Below are positions 5,848 to 33,776 of a stretch of DNA of 38,281 nucleotides, in pieces (position 1 is the first letter of the stretch; each line of letters starts with the position of its first letter). A program made the position numbers and the translations under genes. The notes under the pieces were generated by a model. The model was not told the origin of the DNA. It ran no database searches and saw nothing but the letters and a program-made list of their open reading frames with translations. This DNA comes from Verrucomicrobiota bacterium (lineage in GTDB: Bacteria > Verrucomicrobiota > Kiritimatiellia > RFP12 > UBA1067), in assembly GCA_016280825.1 (NCBI GenBank), contig JAEEHL010000029.1, positions 1-38,281 on the forward strand. Reading direction: 5' to 3'.

Positions 5848-6562
5848 GCTCGTCTGGTTCTTCCTCAACCCGCTTACGTTCTCGCTCGTCGTCGCCTTTG
5901 CAGGGCTCGTCGTCGCGCGCCGCCGCCTCAAGGCCGGCCTTTGGACGGCCGGGATCGCGCTCGCCGCGCTCTGGTTCCAGGGCACGTTCACATGTGCGCT
6001 CGTCACGGGGTGGCCGCTTGAACGCCCATATGCGGAGATGCAGGATGCAGATGCCTCTCCCGAAGCCAGTGCGATTGTCCTTCTCGGCGGCGGAATGGTC
6101 TATCTTGAGGGAATGACCTATCCCGACATGGCGGATTGCGCCGACCGCGTATGGCACGCCGCCCGCCTCTACAAGGCAGGCAAGGCACCGAAGGTGGTGG
6201 TGGCCGGAAGAATGGACCTTCAGGCTACCGTCCCCCTGCTTCTCGACTTCGGTGTGCCGCGAGAGGCGATAGTGGTGGACAACGATTCGCGCAACACATA
6301 CGAGAATTCGCGCAATGTCGTTCAAATCGTCGGCGAAGGCGGGCGGATTCTCCTCGTGACGTCCGCATGGCACATGGGAAGGTCGATTGGCAACTTCAAG
6401 GCGGCGGGACTCGACCCCATTCCCGCGCCATGCGACTTCAAGGCGTACAGGGCTAATTTTGACGATGTGCACTTCTGGAGCTGGTTCGCTCCGACGGCAG
6501 ACAACCTCCTCTCGGTGCAGACGTTCGCGAAGGAGTGGATGGGGAGACTTGCCCGCAGGTAG
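5831..6562 (+). CDS. YdcF/ElyC/SanA-like DUF218 membrane protein
   Basis: Two N-terminal TM segments, IVLLGGGMV, NDSRNTYENSRN, LVTSAWHMGRS motifs. ATG 5831 preceded by ggaaagg; ORF track offers 5813. Confidence 0.86.
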   Translation: MYVVNKLVWFFLNPLTFSLVVAFAGLVVARRRLKAGLWTAGIALAALWFQGTFTCALVTGWPLERPYAEMQDADASPEASAIVLLGGGMVYLEGMTYPDMADCADRVWHAARLYKAGKAPKVVVAGRMDLQATVPLLLDFGVPREAIVVDNDSRNTYENSRNVVQIVGEGGRILLVTSAWHMGRSIGNFKAAGLDPIPAPCDFKAYRANFDDVHFWSWFAPTADNLLSVQTFAKEWMGRLARR

Positions 6563-6581
6563 GGAGCGCGGCATCGCGAAT

Positions 6582-6610
6582 TTGATTTTGCCAGGCGATT
6601 ATGGTAAACT
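6582..6610 (+). promoter_or_regulatory. Sigma70-type extended -10 promoter: TTGATT-N17(..TGG)-TAAACT
   Basis: Read directly; 29 bp upstream of ATG 6639. Confidence 0.65.
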
Positions 6611-6638
6611 ATCTTCCAAAGGAAAGGGGGAAGTGGCA

Positions 6639-8261
6639 ATGAAAACAGACAGGATCGGCGGGCTTTTCAAGGCGGGGTTGCGCAATGCGGCTTTCGCGGC
6701 GGCCTTTTTCGCGGCAGGCGCGGCATTTGCCGACGGCGACCTTGCAGATGCGGTAAAGGCCGACCTCAAGAACGTCGTGCGCCAGGGCGGAATCGGCGAC
6801 AGGCCGTTCTGGAACGCGAACGCTTCGATGTTCATGTATCCGCCGGCGTTCGACTTCAGGGAAGTGGGCAACGTGAAGCGGTATTCCTTCCGAGTGCTCG
6901 CTTCCGACGGCAAGCTCCACACCTTTGTGGCGAAGTCCCCGAAGGCCTCCCTTGCCCCGGTATGGGACAAGCTCCCCACTGGATGGACGGCAGTCGAGTG
7001 CTACTACAACGTCCACCAGGTCGTGGGCTCGAGGTTGTTCTGGAAGTCCGCTCCGTACACCCCAGGCAAGTACCCGCCTGCGGCGATGCCGTATGCCGAG
7101 GCCGTGAAGCGCGGCTACGAATACGTCTTCAACCACCCGCTTTCGCAGCATGTCCTGAAGACGGGCGAGCCGGATTTCACGGTGTACCATTCGTGCTATC
7201 CGTCGAAGATGTACTCGGCGATAATAAAGTCGATGGTCTCGTATGCCGACTACGCCCCCGAAAAGGCGGAAGAGGCAATCGCAATCGCGAAGGCCTCCGC
7301 CGACTGGCTTATCTCGGTGAGCGAACCGAAGGGCGCGCCGCTTGAGTTCTGGCCGCCTACATACTGGGGCGAGAACGCGGCGGCGAAGTCCAACAAGGGC
7401 AGGGTGATGCTCATATATCCTGCCCAGGCGGCCGTGGCGTATGCCGCGCTCTACAGGAAGACGAAGGTCGAGAAGTACCTTGACGCGGCGGAGAAGATCG
7501 CCGCGCACTTCCTGCGCCTCCAGGGCGAGGACGGGACGTGGCCGCTTATCATGACTTTTGCCGACGGCCAGGTGCACGGCAAGAACAGGCTCGTCCCGAT
7601 CCAGGGGGCGATTCCGATGTTCGCCGCGCTCCACGGGATCACCGGCAAGGCGGATTACAAGGCGGCGCTCGACAGGGCGTTCGAGTACATGGACAAGGGC
7701 CCGATGGCGACGTGGAACTGGGAAGGCCAGTTCGAGGACGTCCGCCCGTCCTCGCCGTACTCGAACCTTACGAAGCACAACGCATGCGACATGGCGCTCT
7801 ACATCCTCGAGCGCTTCCCCAAGAACAGGAAGCGCATTGCCGAGGCGCGCGAGATACTGCGCTTCGCGGAAGACCAGTTCGTCTGCTGGGAGCTTCCGTT
7901 CGACGGGGCCGCGAAGGAGACGTTCTTCGGCGACGGCGACTGGAAGGAAGGCGTCGGGCGCGAGAAGTGGGGGCTTCCAGGGGTGCTGGAGCAGTACGGC
8001 TGGTACGTGCCGATCGACGCGAGCGCCTCGAAGCTCATCAAGCTCTACCTCGCGCTCTACCGCGCCGAGGGCAAGCCACTCGACCTCGCGAAGGCGCGCA
8101 CGCTCGGCGATTCCATAACGCGCAACCTCCATACGGAGGACAACCACATCTCGACCCACTGGTACGGCTTCGAGCCGGTGGCCCACCAGTGGCTTAACTG
8201 CCATATAGCGTCGGTGGCGGCACTCGACGAGCTTGACGCGGTTGTGCAGGCGACCAAGTGA
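6639..8261 (+). CDS. Secreted alpha/alpha-toroid (six-hairpin glycosidase / pectate lyase-like) hypothetical protein
   Basis: Signal peptide MKTDRIGGLFKAGLRNAAFAAAFFAAGAAFA; repeated helical units (PAQAAVAYAALYRKTKVEKYLDAAEKIAAHFL...). SD and promoter upstream. Confidence 0.72.
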   Translation: MKTDRIGGLFKAGLRNAAFAAAFFAAGAAFADGDLADAVKADLKNVVRQGGIGDRPFWNANASMFMYPPAFDFREVGNVKRYSFRVLASDGKLHTFVAKSPKASLAPVWDKLPTGWTAVECYYNVHQVVGSRLFWKSAPYTPGKYPPAAMPYAEAVKRGYEYVFNHPLSQHVLKTGEPDFTVYHSCYPSKMYSAIIKSMVSYADYAPEKAEEAIAIAKASADWLISVSEPKGAPLEFWPPTYWGENAAAKSNKGRVMLIYPAQAAVAYAALYRKTKVEKYLDAAEKIAAHFLRLQGEDGTWPLIMTFADGQVHGKNRLVPIQGAIPMFAALHGITGKADYKAALDRAFEYMDKGPMATWNWEGQFEDVRPSSPYSNLTKHNACDMALYILERFPKNRKRIAEAREILRFAEDQFVCWELPFDGAAKETFFGDGDWKEGVGREKWGLPGVLEQYGWYVPIDASASKLIKLYLALYRAEGKPLDLAKARTLGDSITRNLHTEDNHISTHWYGFEPVAHQWLNCHIASVAALDELDAVVQATK

Positions 8262-10627: not shown

Positions 10628-10651
10628 TCACGGCAATACACGCAAAGCAAT

Positions 10652-10682: not shown

Positions 10683-13600
10683 ATGAAAAAACTGATTGCC
10701 GCCGCAGGACTTCTCGCCCTTGCTCACGCTACAGAGGCGAAGACGATTGGGATATGGGTTGACGGGCGGAGCTACGTCTCCGACGGCTTTACGAATTCCC
10801 TCGCCGAAGCCGGCTGGAACATCGAGTGGTTCTCCAAGAACGACCTCGAGAACGTCGAAAAGCTCGACAAGACCGATGTCATGTACTGCGGCGGCGGCTG
10901 GAACGCCTACTTCTTCCCGACGCCAAAGTCGCGCCTGAACCTCGTCCGCTACGCGGCTGGCGGCAAGGGAGTCTTTCTTTCCGGCTTCCGCTCCGGCTAT
11001 CCGCGTACGGCGAACCGCCCCATGTTCCCCGAGATAGGCGCTGTGTACAACCGCGTCTCCTGCCCGTGGATATGGCCGGTCGGCAAGAGCGCCCTCGCCA
11101 AGGCGTTCAACGGCAAGCCAGTCGTCGGGTCCGGCAACGACCATCTCTGCCTTCGCAAAGGCGACTGGGGCGAGGTCTTCTGCTGCAGCGGCGAAGACAT
11201 CGTAGGGACGTTCGGCGACTACTACTGCGGGCGCGTAGTCGTGTACGGCGGGCATTTCTCGTATGGAGTCGTGGACGAAACCCGTGCCGACGCGGAGAGG
11301 CTTCTTCTGGCGTCGCTCAAGTACCTGACGGGGCAGAAGAAGCCGTCGCCGCAGGAGCAGGAGAAGGCCATGTCGAAGGCGGCGATGGCGCTCATAAGGC
11401 GCGAGCTGATCTGGACATGGACAATCGACGACCGAGGCCCCGACAGGCGGCCCGGCATAGTGGCAGAGTGGCGCGACAGGACGACGGTCGAGCCGGAGGC
11501 GCTTTCGTACAAGCTCGACTACTACGCGAAGTTCCTGAAGGCCGACGAGGCCAAGAAGTGCGTCAACGCGTCGAGGATTCTCAAGGGCGACGTCGCCACC
11601 ACGCGCAAAGTCGCCGCCGCGATCTGCGACGAGCTGCGCCGCAAGGTGGAGGGCATGGACATGTTCGACCTGACGTTCGCATACGTCTCCGGCAATCCGC
11701 CGGTCGAGCTTGAGGCCATCAAGAGCCGCCTCCAGCGCCAGATAAGGGAACAGTTCGTGACGTCGGCCAGGAAGCTCATTGCCGAGATGCAGCCCAAGGT
11801 GAAAGCCGCGAAGAAGGCAGCCCTCGAGAAGGAGGTCGCTGAAGACCTCAAGTCGGTCCCCGCGCTCGTCGAGAAGCTTTCCTCGAAGTGCCCGAAGGAG
11901 CGCTACGAGGCAGCGCTTGAGCTGGGGCGCATCTCTCCCGACGACGGAAAGGCCGTCGCGGCCCTTTGCGCGGCGCTTTCCGACGCGGACGACAAGGTTC
12001 GCACGCAGGCGGCGATATCGCTCGGCTGGATGCAGGCTTTAGGCGCGGTCGACGCGCTCGTGAAGAACCTCTCGGCGAAGTCGGTCTTCGACCGCCGCCG
12101 CGCGATACAGGCCCTTGGCTTCATTGGCGAGAAGAAGGCCGTCCCCGCGGTCATGAAGATGCTTTCGGATCCCGACCCCGACTGCAGGATGTACGCGGTC
12201 GTCGCCCTTGGCCACTTGAGGGCGACGGAGGCGGTGGAGAGGATTCTTTCCATTGCACAGGACGAGAAGGCCGACATCGACCTCAGGTGCACGGCGATTC
12301 TCGCCCTCGGCGACATCGGCGACAGGCGCGCTCAGGCCGCGATCGAGAAGATCGACTCCGAGGCGAAGCCCTATGCCACTCGCGACAGGCGGGGCGTCGT
12401 CAGCGGCAACTACCTTTCATGGCGGTACGGCTGCAACCTGAAGCTCGCCGCCGAAAGGGCGCTCAAGGCGCTTGCCGCGGGCGGCAGGGCCGCGCTCGGC
12501 GTGAAGCAGCCGGAGGAATACCGTTCGCGCGCCATGTTCTACGCAATAACGAAGAAATGCAACTTCTTCGCCGGGCGCACAGGAATGGGCGGCTCCGGCG
12601 GGCTGTTCGGCGGCGACAGGCAGAAGCTTCTCTGGGCGCACCTGAAGGACGCCGGCTTTACGGGGGTGCACAATTCGTGGGGGGCGCCGTCCGGGCTGAC
12701 GCCAGAGGAGTTCAAGGACATCGTCTGCGAGGCCGACGACCTCGGGCTTGTCTGGATAGACGTCATGCCGGGCTGGGTGCGCTGCAACTGCCCGATGTCT
12801 GAGATACTTCTCGAGGAGTTCAAGGACGTCCCTGCGTACCACGGCCTTTGGGCGGAGGAGACGTGGCCGGAGCTCGGCGCGAACGTCGGGGAGTTCAAGA
12901 AGTTCCTTGCCGAGCGCTACGGCAGCGACTGGGCGAAGACGCTCAAGCTGAGCGACGCGGAGCTTAAGGTCATTTCCAGCGAGAAGTCGCCAGACTGGAA
13001 CCCCGACTGGATAGGATTTGGGTGCGCCGGGCCGGGCAAGAAGCTTGAGGCCGGCTTTGCGCCGCCGTGGGACGGCGTCTTGAGGACGCTCGTCCTGGAG
13101 TTCGGCGGCAAGCTTCTCGAGAACGCATGGCGCGAGTCGCAGGACTACCTGCACGCCCGCCGCAAGGGCTTTGCTCAGACGTACGTCATATCGACTGCAG
13201 ACCCGACAAAGCCAATCGGCGGAATGCAGGCCGTGGAGAAGCTCGACTCGCTCGGCCATGAGTCGTACGAGTGCTTCGGGCGCGGCAGCGCATATCTAAT
13301 GGAGCGCTACCGCAACGGCGGTGCGCCGAGAAGCGTGATGAGCGAGCAGTACCACTGGTACTGCCCGTCGAACGCGCATGCGCTCAGGGGGTTCTGGCAG
13401 AACGCGATCCACTCGAAGTGCTACTACGACTTCTCGCTTCACCAGATGTTCGCATATCCAAGCTGGGTTGACATGTGGAGCTGGGAGCGCGGCCGCTGGG
13501 AGGCCGCGAAGGAAGTCTTCACCCGCGTAGCGAAGACGCCAGACCTCTACGCAATCTCGCCCTCTGCGGCGAACGCGGCGGTCGTCTTCTCCGAGCGCTC

Positions 13601-14669
13601 GTCGAGCGCCGTCAAGGAGCAGGTGTACTTCATGTGCGGTGTGCCGCCTCGCAACGACCACAACGCGATGGCTGCGTGGGCGGCCCTGAACGAACTTCAG
13701 GTGCCTTCGGACGTCGTCTGGGCCGAGACCTTGGACAAGTCGAAGATCTCCAAGTACAAGTTCCTCTATCTCCCGACGGCGAAGTACCTCCTTGATTCCG
13801 AGGTCGAGACAATCCGCGAATGGGTGAAGGAGGGCGGCGTTCTCGTCGCCGAGGGCACGACCTCGCTCTTCGGCGGCCACAGCCTCAAGAACCGCGGCAA
13901 CTATGCGCTTGCAGACGTCTTTGGCTGCGACTGGAAGGAGACAAAGTTCCGCACGGGCGACGACAGCGACACTTTCGCAGGCCGCCACGGCGTCTCGTCG
14001 GCGTTCAAGGCAGTGCCCGGCCTTGACAGCCCGCTTCACATCGACGACTCGATACACAGGGCTGCCAAGCCCGAGAAGTCGATAGTCCGCGCGAAGGTCG
14101 CCGAGGACGCAGGCGAGCTCCTGCCGGGATTGAAGAAGGGCGCGGAGATAGAGATGGACGGTGCGCTTGGTTTCGATGTTGTGAAGCCCACTACGGCGAA
14201 GGTGCTTGCCGAATGGAACGGCAGCCCCGCGATTCTCGCGAACGACTTCGGCAAGGGGCGGTGCTACTTTGTCGCGGCGAACTACTTTGCGCACGCGCAT
14301 GTTGCGTCCCGCTGGGAGATGCTGCCCGGGAAGTTCGACTTCTGGGGCAACGTCCTCGAGTCGATAGGCGCGATGGCCAAGTCGGGCTACGCGGCGGTCG
14401 GCGCGACGCTGCCCGTCGAGGTAAGCGGCGTCTCGAAGGAGGTCGAGGTTTCCGCCGCAGACTTTGGCGGCAAGTACGTTGTCCACATGCTCGACTACGA
14501 CGTCTTCTCCGAGGGCGTCGCTGGCGCCAAGCTTTCAATCCCCGGCGAGAGGAAGATAAAGAAGGTCTACTACCCGGGCGAGAAGGCGCCGTTGAAGCTT
14601 GACGGCCGCACGGCGCAATTGAGGGATTTCAAGGTCTACGACATGTTCGTCATCGAGTTCGACGACTGA
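10683..14669 (+). CDS. Very large secreted protein: GATase/ThuA-like N-terminal domain, HEAT repeats, GH42-like C-terminal region
   Basis: Signal peptide MKKLIAAAGLLALAHA; IGIWVDGRSYVSDGF... MYCGGGWN; HEAT repeats around 11860-12350 (VPALVEKLSS... ALELGRI... AVDALVKNL... AIQALGFIGEKKAVPAVMKML); TIM-barrel plus Rossmann-like C-terminal region. Confidence 0.75.
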   Translation: MKKLIAAAGLLALAHATEAKTIGIWVDGRSYVSDGFTNSLAEAGWNIEWFSKNDLENVEKLDKTDVMYCGGGWNAYFFPTPKSRLNLVRYAAGGKGVFLSGFRSGYPRTANRPMFPEIGAVYNRVSCPWIWPVGKSALAKAFNGKPVVGSGNDHLCLRKGDWGEVFCCSGEDIVGTFGDYYCGRVVVYGGHFSYGVVDETRADAERLLLASLKYLTGQKKPSPQEQEKAMSKAAMALIRRELIWTWTIDDRGPDRRPGIVAEWRDRTTVEPEALSYKLDYYAKFLKADEAKKCVNASRILKGDVATTRKVAAAICDELRRKVEGMDMFDLTFAYVSGNPPVELEAIKSRLQRQIREQFVTSARKLIAEMQPKVKAAKKAALEKEVAEDLKSVPALVEKLSSKCPKERYEAALELGRISPDDGKAVAALCAALSDADDKVRTQAAISLGWMQALGAVDALVKNLSAKSVFDRRRAIQALGFIGEKKAVPAVMKMLSDPDPDCRMYAVVALGHLRATEAVERILSIAQDEKADIDLRCTAILALGDIGDRRAQAAIEKIDSEAKPYATRDRRGVVSGNYLSWRYGCNLKLAAERALKALAAGGRAALGVKQPEEYRSRAMFYAITKKCNFFAGRTGMGGSGGLFGGDRQKLLWAHLKDAGFTGVHNSWGAPSGLTPEEFKDIVCEADDLGLVWIDVMPGWVRCNCPMSEILLEEFKDVPAYHGLWAEETWPELGANVGEFKKFLAERYGSDWAKTLKLSDAELKVISSEKSPDWNPDWIGFGCAGPGKKLEAGFAPPWDGVLRTLVLEFGGKLLENAWRESQDYLHARRKGFAQTYVISTADPTKPIGGMQAVEKLDSLGHESYECFGRGSAYLMERYRNGGAPRSVMSEQYHWYCPSNAHALRGFWQNAIHSKCYYDFSLHQMFAYPSWVDMWSWERGRWEAAKEVFTRVAKTPDLYAISPSAANAAVVFSERSSSAVKEQVYFMCGVPPRNDHNAMAAWAALNELQVPSDVVWAETLDKSKISKYKFLYLPTAKYLLDSEVETIREWVKEGGVLVAEGTTSLFGGHSLKNRGNYALADVFGCDWKETKFRTGDDSDTFAGRHGVSSAFKAVPGLDSPLHIDDSIHRAAKPEKSIVRAKVAEDAGELLPGLKKGAEIEMDGALGFDVVKPTTAKVLAEWNGSPAILANDFGKGRCYFVAANYFAHAHVASRWEMLPGKFDFWGNVLESIGAMAKSGYAAVGATLPVEVSGVSKEVEVSAADFGGKYVVHMLDYDVFSEGVAGAKLSIPGERKIKKVYYPGEKAPLKLDGRTAQLRDFKVYDMFVIEFDD

Positions 14670-31512: not shown

Positions 31513-31651
31513 AGTCCAGTTCCGCGATTTTTCAGGTGAACTTCTCGAATCCACCGCTTGTCGCCCATTGCTGACCCTGCCCCCAACTGCTATCAACCAA
31601 TCAGGATCGGCTGGAGTTGCGAGGCGGGGAGTGGTGCTACCGTTTTTTGGG

Positions 31652-31680
31652 TTTACTCTTTTGGGATTATTTGATAAAAT
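31652..31680 (+). promoter_or_regulatory. Extended -10 promoter: TTTACT-N17(..TGA)-TAAAAT
   Basis: Upstream of the secreted GH-like gene at 31725. Confidence 0.68.
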
Positions 31681-31724
31681 TCGTGGCTAAAAGGAGTTTG
31701 GGTGGTCATTCCAATGGGGGAGAG

Positions 31725-33776
31725 ATGAAACGGTTGCTGGTGCTTGGTCTTGTCGTGCAGCTGTCGATGCTGCATGCTGCGGTGAAGATGCCTTCGGAGT
31801 TCGGGCGCGACTATGCCTTCCTGAACATCGTGCCAGCGCAGACTTCCGAAGAGGGGCTGCGCCAGCTCGCGAAGGACATTGTCGAGTACCGCGAGCTTAC
31901 GGGCTGCAGGCTAGTCCTCCCCTCGCTTTCCTTCCATCCCGATGCGAAGCCAGCGACAAAGAAGGCCCAGCGGCTCCTTGACTTCTACAGGGCGCTCAAG
32001 AAGGAGCTTGCCGGCACGGACATCGAGCTTGGCGTACTCATACAGAGCATCATGGGCCATTGGGCGGTCGAGAAGGCCGGCGGCTACGACGACTGGACGC
32101 GCAGCATCGACATCAACGGCAAGGTCTGGCGCTTCTGCCCGCTCGACCCCGGCTTTCGCAAGTACATCGAATGGTTCGTGACGGAGCTTGCGCGCGAGCG
32201 CCCTGCGTTCATCCTCACCGACGACGACATGCTCTGCAAGGGCGGCATGGAGTGCTTCTGCCCGCTTCACCTGAAGGAGGCGAACCGCAGGCTCGGCATG
32301 AACATGACCGCCGACGAATACCGCGCCGCGGTGAAGGCGGCGCGCGAGGGCGAGAAGGGGCATGAAGACGTCTTTCGCGTCTTCAACGAGCTTGCAATCG
32401 AGTTTACGTCGGGCTGCGCCGCCTTGATAAGAAAGACGATCGACGCGGTCGACCCCTCCATCCCAGCCGGCATCTGCCAGGGCGCGCCGATATACATATC
32501 TACCGGCCCGTGCGCGGAGGCAATAGCGGCAAAGGGCCAGCCGGCCGTTGCGCGGCTCAGCAATTCGTGCTACCGCGAAAGGTCGGCGAAGGACTTCCCG
32601 AGGTACATGCGCTCGTCGTTCGAGACTGAGTGCCTTTCGAGGGACGTGCCGATAAGGCTTGACGAATCAGACACGTTCCCGCATAACCTGTGGAGCGTCT
32701 CGGCCGTGACGTTCAAGGCGAAGATCGCGCTTGCCGCGATGTGCGGCCTCAATGGATCGAAGATCTGGCTCGTGAACATGCACAAGGGCAAGCGCCCCGT
32801 GCCGCGCGAATATACGCGCGTCGTCGCAGAATGCGGCGAGATGTACCGTGCGCTCGCGCGGGAAGTGAGGGGGTCGGTGCAGAAGGGCTTTGCCGTCGTC
32901 GTGCACACGAACGACATTGCGACTTCGACCCTCACCTCATACCTAACCTGGGGCGACCGCTTCGGCGGCGTCTTCGGCGTGCCCTGGCGCTGCACGGCGA
33001 ACCTCGAAGAAGGCGGCGTCTACACCCTCGCCGACGCGCAGGACGTGATGCGCTGTTCTGACGAAGACCTGAAGCGGCTCCTTTCCGGGCGGCTTCTCGT
33101 AGACGGGCGCGCCGCGGCGGAGCTTTGCGCGCGCGGATATGCCGACTTCATCGGCGTTGACGCGATAAGGAAGGGCAAGCCCCCCGCTCCCGGAGTCAAG
33201 ATAGACACCGCCTTCGACATCGTGCAGGTGCGGGAGCGAGTCGAGAAGACCGGCGAGACGCTTTACCATCTCTACACCTCGAACACGCCCGAGCTAAGGA
33301 ACCTGCGCGAAGGGGCGAAGGTTTTCTCCACCTTCGTGCGCGACTCGACCCCTGCAGCAGTCGTCTACGACAACAAGCTCGGAGGCCGCGTCTTCACCGC
33401 CGCGCTCGACCTGGGGCTCGAGAGCTTCGAGCCGTGGTGCCGCCGTGGCTATGACGAGCAGCGCAAGGAATGGTTTCACATGGCGCTTGACGAGCTTTCC
33501 GGCGCGCGCACCGAATACGCCGTCGTGAACGACAAGAACATGGCCGTCATCCACAGGCGCAAGAGAGACGGGTCCGACCTCGTGTGCGTCTGGAACAACC
33601 ACTACGACCCGGTAGTGAACCTTGGCCTGCGCGTCGCCGCGCCGCCCGCGAAGATCGAGGTCCTTTCGCCCGACGGCACATGGAAGGGCGCGGAATGGAA
33701 GACGGCGGATGGAGCGGTCGAGATAAAGGTCGACATGCCGTGCTACGCATTCGCGGTATTCAGGATTTCGAAATGA
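31725..33776 (+). CDS. Secreted glycoside hydrolase-like (TIM-barrel) protein
   Basis: Signal peptide MKRLLVLGLVVQLSMLHA; FILTDDDMLCKGGMECFCPLHLKEANRRLG; beta-rich C-terminus. ORF-track start 31617 precedes the promoter. Confidence 0.68.
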   Translation: MKRLLVLGLVVQLSMLHAAVKMPSEFGRDYAFLNIVPAQTSEEGLRQLAKDIVEYRELTGCRLVLPSLSFHPDAKPATKKAQRLLDFYRALKKELAGTDIELGVLIQSIMGHWAVEKAGGYDDWTRSIDINGKVWRFCPLDPGFRKYIEWFVTELARERPAFILTDDDMLCKGGMECFCPLHLKEANRRLGMNMTADEYRAAVKAAREGEKGHEDVFRVFNELAIEFTSGCAALIRKTIDAVDPSIPAGICQGAPIYISTGPCAEAIAAKGQPAVARLSNSCYRERSAKDFPRYMRSSFETECLSRDVPIRLDESDTFPHNLWSVSAVTFKAKIALAAMCGLNGSKIWLVNMHKGKRPVPREYTRVVAECGEMYRALAREVRGSVQKGFAVVVHTNDIATSTLTSYLTWGDRFGGVFGVPWRCTANLEEGGVYTLADAQDVMRCSDEDLKRLLSGRLLVDGRAAAELCARGYADFIGVDAIRKGKPPAPGVKIDTAFDIVQVRERVEKTGETLYHLYTSNTPELRNLREGAKVFSTFVRDSTPAAVVYDNKLGGRVFTAALDLGLESFEPWCRRGYDEQRKEWFHMALDELSGARTEYAVVNDKNMAVIHRRKRDGSDLVCVWNNHYDPVVNLGLRVAAPPAKIEVLSPDGTWKGAEWKTADGAVEIKVDMPCYAFAVFRISK

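Follow-up and report, generated by a model that had tools for sequence, protein, structure and literature searches.

Results

Domain organization of the fusion protein

In the window (the whole stretch of 38,281 nucleotides analyzed here), one gene on the forward strand (10683-14669) encodes a predicted secreted protein of 1328 residues, which carries a ThuA-like domain, a helical domain, a HEAT solenoid and a GH42-like half in an order that was also found in its relatives. The frame has no internal stop, in agreement with the first-pass annotation, which had described one continuous frame of about 1,330 residues and whose quoted sequence motifs were all found in the protein. A longer in-frame start is present at 10650. 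The start at 10683 is preceded by CTGGAGGACGC, a ribosome-binding site of the GGAGG type, and yields, by eye, a clean signal peptide (MKKLIAAAGLLALAHATEA, followed by KTIG). This predicted Sec signal peptide (residues 1-19; 10683-10739, +; cleavage after TEA) had been proposed before and is matched by similar sites in the paralogs; the fusion protein is predicted to be exported.

The N-terminal domain (residues 20-228; 10740-11366, +) is ThuA-like. In hhalign, a profile of 19 relatives matched one built from 17 true ThuA sequences found in the class (prob 97, E 9.5e-11, 186 columns), and the reversed-profile control gave an E of about 0.5. Pfam ThuA was weakly matched in 8 of the 19 relatives (best E 3.9e-4). 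The domain of the window copy had no Pfam match, its PF06283 score stayed below the cut-off, and the window's genome contained no PF06283 match. The elbow reads FLSGFRSG (residues 98-105) and lacks Cys: the amidotransferase Cys of the G-x-C-x-G pattern is replaced by R103, which was Arg in all 19 relatives, and Cys occurred at neighboring position 100 in one member and at 104 in six. Thus, a functional glutamine amidotransferase was rejected. The ThuA sequence aligned in the hhalign comparison has His at this position, so the absence of Cys is normal for ThuA. The previous description of a ThuA-like domain without Cys therefore holds, but the missing Cys is no oddity of a single protein. Three residues, R103, G105 and D153, were invariant in the 19 sequences. 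The second half of the domain was poorly modeled by AlphaFold2 (pLDDT below 50), and the fold there therefore rests on sequence comparison only.

The ThuA-like domain is followed by a domain of long helices outside any known family (residues 229-389; 11367-11849, +), which had no consistent Pfam match and whose helices were mostly predicted with pLDDT above 80, and by a HEAT solenoid of about five two-helix repeats (residues 390-565; 11850-12377, +). Tandem two-helix repeats forming a solenoid were recovered by Pfam (HEAT_2, E 2.7e-28, about residues 390-565), by an AlphaFold2 model of residues 20-600 (pLDDT about 90-95 in the HEAT part; folding alignments were built without the loci found in the genome searches) and by Foldseek comparison of the HEAT model with the PDB, where alphaRep HEAT designs were the best matches (E 3.3e-9). 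The HEAT block seen in the first reading of the sequence is thus confirmed by structure prediction. HEAT solenoids are known as protein-binding scaffolds, so that one within an exported glycosidase-like protein is an arrangement for which no role has been described.

The C-terminal half comprises a GH42-like barrel (residues 612-945; 12516-13517, +), a GH42 trimerization-type domain with a GATase-like fold (residues 960-1240; 13560-14402, +) and a C-terminal domain that is probably a beta-sandwich (residues 1241-1328; 14403-14666, +). In the window copy, PF08532 (GH42 trimerization) was matched at residues 963-1097 with an E of 2.5e-12, and all 23 relatives matched it at E up to 1. The Rossmann-like region noted earlier lies inside this domain and is not a separate one. 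The family profile also matched GH42 crystal structures in the PDB (E 3.7e-9). The beta-sandwich assignment came from a match of this profile to the C-terminal domain of the GH151 fucosidase 6tvk and from terminal strands (pLDDT 77-84) in the AlphaFold2 model of the GH half; the rest of that model was poor (mean pLDDT 38.9, shallow alignment) and was not used as evidence. The idea that the ThuA-like domain arose by copying of the GH42M domain was unsupported (hhalign prob 0.5 to 3.7).

Relationship to GH42 and candidate catalytic residues

For comparison of this half with GH42, PF02449 was used to collect 15 true GH42 sequences from the class. The whole half matched them over 593 columns with prob 99.8 and E 2.7e-27 in hhalign (prob 99.2 and E 2.3e-19 with default settings; E 0.5-0.7 in reversed controls), a signal to which the trimerization domain contributes much. 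The barrel alone matched the GH42 barrel weakly (prob 76, E 2.4e-5, against about 0.3 in reversed controls). The PF02449 barrel model had two matches in the window's genome (contigs C144 and C207) and none on the contigs of the fusion family; hmmscan of family members listed no PF02449, the GH42 barrel cut-off not being reached. These comparisons support the GH half as a distant, divergent relative of GH42, which bears out the earlier suggestion of a GH42-like barrel.

Two sites in the barrel are candidates for catalysis. First, in the hhalign alignment E888 shares a column with the M-E motif of GH42, making it the putative counterpart of the nucleophile Glu that GH42 enzymes carry where strand 7 ends. 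It was Glu in 20 of the 23 relatives and Gln in three copies from the genome G492 (L110, L111 and L113). Second, the Asn-Glu acid/base pair at the end of strand 4 of GH42 was not found; a W-x-E-E motif (E725/E726) is present instead in all 23 relatives, including those with only about 26% identity. The motif was placed on the GH42 N-E pair by eye only and was not aligned with it by hhalign; one of E725 and E726 is the candidate acid/base. A further glutamate, E818, was invariant in the 23 relatives. The three copies in which Gln replaces the putative nucleophile keep W-x-E-E and are possibly inactive or mechanistically altered members.

Comparison with known enzymes

Among the closest known systems are the GH42 beta-galactosidases (PF02449 plus PF08532; PDB 4oif and 3tts), which have the same order of barrel, trimerization and C-terminal domains, with a collinear profile match and with E888 aligned to their nucleophile motif. 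Unlike them, the fusion protein has no PF02449 match, carries W-x-E-E in place of N-E, and possesses a signal peptide and three additional N-terminal domains. Part of the GH42M-type domain is also shared with PDB 6t5o, a GH42M-domain enzyme which we take to be GH164 (E 0.012; no other domain matched). The GH151 alpha-L-fucosidase ALfuk2 (PDB 6tvk) consists of a barrel, a Rossmann-type domain and a C-terminal sandwich, uses D154 and E235 as catalytic residues, and is described without such an N-terminal extension (PMC10154630). The family profile matched 6tvk with an E of 3.3e-7 through the middle and C-terminal domains only, leaving its barrel unaligned. Filing the family under GH151 was set aside, since the match involves accessory domains only.

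Long proteins (1161-1328 residues) with HEAT repeats and ThuA also occur in other Kiritimatiellae (L197, L198 and L199), but there the HEAT repeats come first and are followed by a canonical ThuA domain, and no GH42-like half was recognized. The distinctive feature of the fusion protein is therefore its GH42-like half in the given order. ThuA-like domains of the same type were found fused to glycosidase-type modules elsewhere in the phylum, namely to GHL10 or GH20b in four proteins from other classes (L205, L206, L208 and L209) and to a GH42M half in a fifth protein (L211), none with a recognized HEAT solenoid. The ThuA-like domain thus looks like a module that recurs as an accessory to glycosidases across the phylum. 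A literature search, outside of which most subscription journals lay, returned no paper joining HEAT repeat, glycoside hydrolase and ThuA, and none joining Kiritimatiellae and HEAT repeat. A CAZy family number for the fusion family may already exist.

Distribution of the fusion family

The same domain order was found in at least five genomes. Among 162 genomes of the order, clear members were present in two other species, the sister species G113 ('Kiritimatiellae bacterium isolate RGIG9599', from yak colon) and the congener G129. A contig scan gave no match with the single window sequence as query; with an alignment as query, its only match was the yak colon metagenome-assembled genome (MAG). 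The domain order of the window copy was also shared by G492 and G538, two genomes from a different family within the class. When 346 genomes of the class were searched with the N-terminal profile, five gave E below 1e-100 and five more matched weakly; the rest of the phylum sample contained separate modules only (GH42M, or the ThuA-like domain of the same type with GHL10 or GH20b). The fusion family is thus patchily distributed. The three segments of the first-pass annotation were borne out in their order by the domain assignments and by the relatives. Its description of an unusual architecture needs to be split: the order recurs in at least five genomes, with many paralogs, and is no single fusion, but with strong matches in five of 346 genomes of the class, and no paper on it in the literature searched, it is no common described family either.

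Copy number varied among these genomes. Three contigs of G113 (C15, C37 and C38) have an identical 139-nt end in common, which fits a tandem array of about three copies, whose order and number are ambiguous as the ends are all identical. Just upstream of a copy at a G113 contig end lies a gene (L044, 4335-6140) for a protein with a sulfatase-modifying-factor-like domain and a possible esterase. G492 contained 58 matching stretches. Among the open reading frames fetched from it, 15 have the series of ThuA-like, HEAT, barrel and GH42M domains, two lack the N terminus because of a contig end, and the others have HEAT and GH42M, or GH42M alone. Our figure of about 35 reading frames in this genome is our own count from the list of matching stretches, with distant members of the wider family included.

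A maximum-likelihood tree was built from 32 members, in which copies belonging to the window's genus grouped with full support. Five dispersed copies of the window's genome formed one clade, and the copy on contig C215 grouped with those of G113. In the midpoint-rooted drawing, the genus clade was placed among G492 and G538 sequences. This topology is compatible with one shared origin and later, independent expansions.

Paralogs in the window's genome

The window's genome is a fragmented MAG (2.32 Mb, 227 contigs, 83% complete) with nine matches to the fusion family, several of which end at contig ends. Two pairs of contigs could be merged through exact overlaps at their ends, C58 and C78 over 23 nt, and C140 and C64 over 54 nt. 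C55 and C68 differ in 6% of bases over 393 shared bases, and their copies are separate genes or strain variants. The nine matches thus represent at least six genes, and probably seven, with identity to the window copy ranging from 92% (a C-terminal fragment) down to 49%.

When the window copy is compared with its two closest paralogs, the homologous region begins only 3 to 8 nt upstream of the start codon, and the flanks are unrelated; the homologies at the C-terminal end stop at the stop codon. No full-length match to the fusion protein was found on plasmids. Recent duplication together with flanks, or transfer by a carrier element, was rejected on these grounds. Among the closest copies, conservation was higher in the GH half than in the helical part and linker, which could mean that diversification affects placement or binding. 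A tRNA-Ala (GGC) gene on contig C55 (L051, 10411-10486) ends 28 nt upstream of the start codon of the copy there, which may be co-transcribed with the tRNA or mark an insertion point.

Gene neighborhoods

The neighbors of the window copy (the YggS family and rpoD) are housekeeping genes that are silent on substrate. The only hints come from those of two relatives. The copy on C68 ends 3 nt upstream of a GH109-type gene (Glyco_hydro_109_C, E 1.2e-42). The copy in G129 has a GH39-type gene upstream and, downstream, a gene of the beta-N-acetylglucosaminidase type (NAGidase, E 2.4e-15) and one for a DHDPS-family aldolase; its cluster includes a Gfo/Idh oxidoreductase gene. These neighbors hint at amino-sugar glycans.

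Two other genes in the window were considered by eye. The product of 31617-33776 (+), about 700 residues, looks like an exported glycosidase and had no Pfam match at E 0.001. The product of 6387-8261 (+) looks like an alpha/alpha-barrel (YAALYRKTKVEKYLDAAEKIAAHFLRLQGEDGTWP) and had no Pfam match at E 1e-5; its true start probably lies downstream of the one listed.

Discussion

Our results best support a model, which we consider about evenly balanced between right and wrong, in which the fusion protein is an exported, probably retaining GH42-like exo-glycosidase. Its C-terminal half, a divergent GH42 relative with barrel, trimerization domain and C-terminal sandwich, would act through two glutamates, with E888 serving as nucleophile and either E725 or E726 as acid/base. 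The other parts (ThuA-like, helical and HEAT) would be a non-catalytic scaffold that keeps the enzyme on its substrate, on the cell surface or on a partner protein. Fusion of the ThuA-like domain to other glycosidase-type modules in the phylum is what would be expected if it were an accessory part. The substrate would most likely be a glycan rich in amino sugars. Copying and diversification of the gene would allow one bacterium to export related enzymes with different fine specificities. Against a glycosidase stand the weak GH42-likeness of the barrel alone, the lack of PF02449, the three Gln-bearing G492 copies and the presence of W-x-E-E rather than N-E.

The same weak resemblance of the barrel and the same Gln substitutions, together with accessory parts that make up more than half of the protein and the roughly 35 frames of G492, could also indicate that the family is mainly a carbohydrate-binding or surface scaffold, with an inactive barrel and with copies serving adhesion or nutrient capture instead of cleavage. 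However, E725, E726 and E818 are kept in all 23 relatives and E888 in 20, and in the closest copies it is the GH half that outconserves the helical part and the linker. We therefore regard this explanation as rather unlikely, if still a serious one. Much less probable is that the ThuA-like domain itself is catalytic on an oxidized (3-keto) sugar and forms, with Gfo/Idh-type dehydrogenases, a redox route of glycan cleavage. The Gfo/Idh fold of the GH109-type gene after the C68 copy, the oxidoreductase gene in the G129 cluster and the three invariant residues of the domain would agree with such a route, but the window copy has no Gfo/Idh-type neighbor, and a literature search on ThuA with keto and isomerase gave only unrelated papers, so that the idea draws on background knowledge of ThuA/ThuB. 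Finally, an assembly or binning artefact, or a chance reading frame, which the fragmented MAG and the copies at contig ends might suggest, is refuted for the domain order by full-length frames of the same order on several contigs, in the independent yak colon MAG (L042) and in three further genomes, and has a negligible probability given also the housekeeping genes that flank the window copy.

Returning to the glycosidase model, a bolder form of it, which we consider rather unlikely, is that the fusion proteins constitute a new GH family, related to but separate from GH42, in which the HEAT arch would present or position the glycan or a partner protein and which would have multiplied in some Kiritimatiellae to sets of up to about 35 exported enzymes covering the variety of one complex glycan. 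Gut Kiritimatiellae are nearly all uncultured. The copy number makes the family testable and, if the copies differ in specificity, they would be a natural panel for complex-glycan breakdown by these gut bacteria. In addition, the fusion family would supply a GH42-related group that is missed by the present Pfam barrel model.
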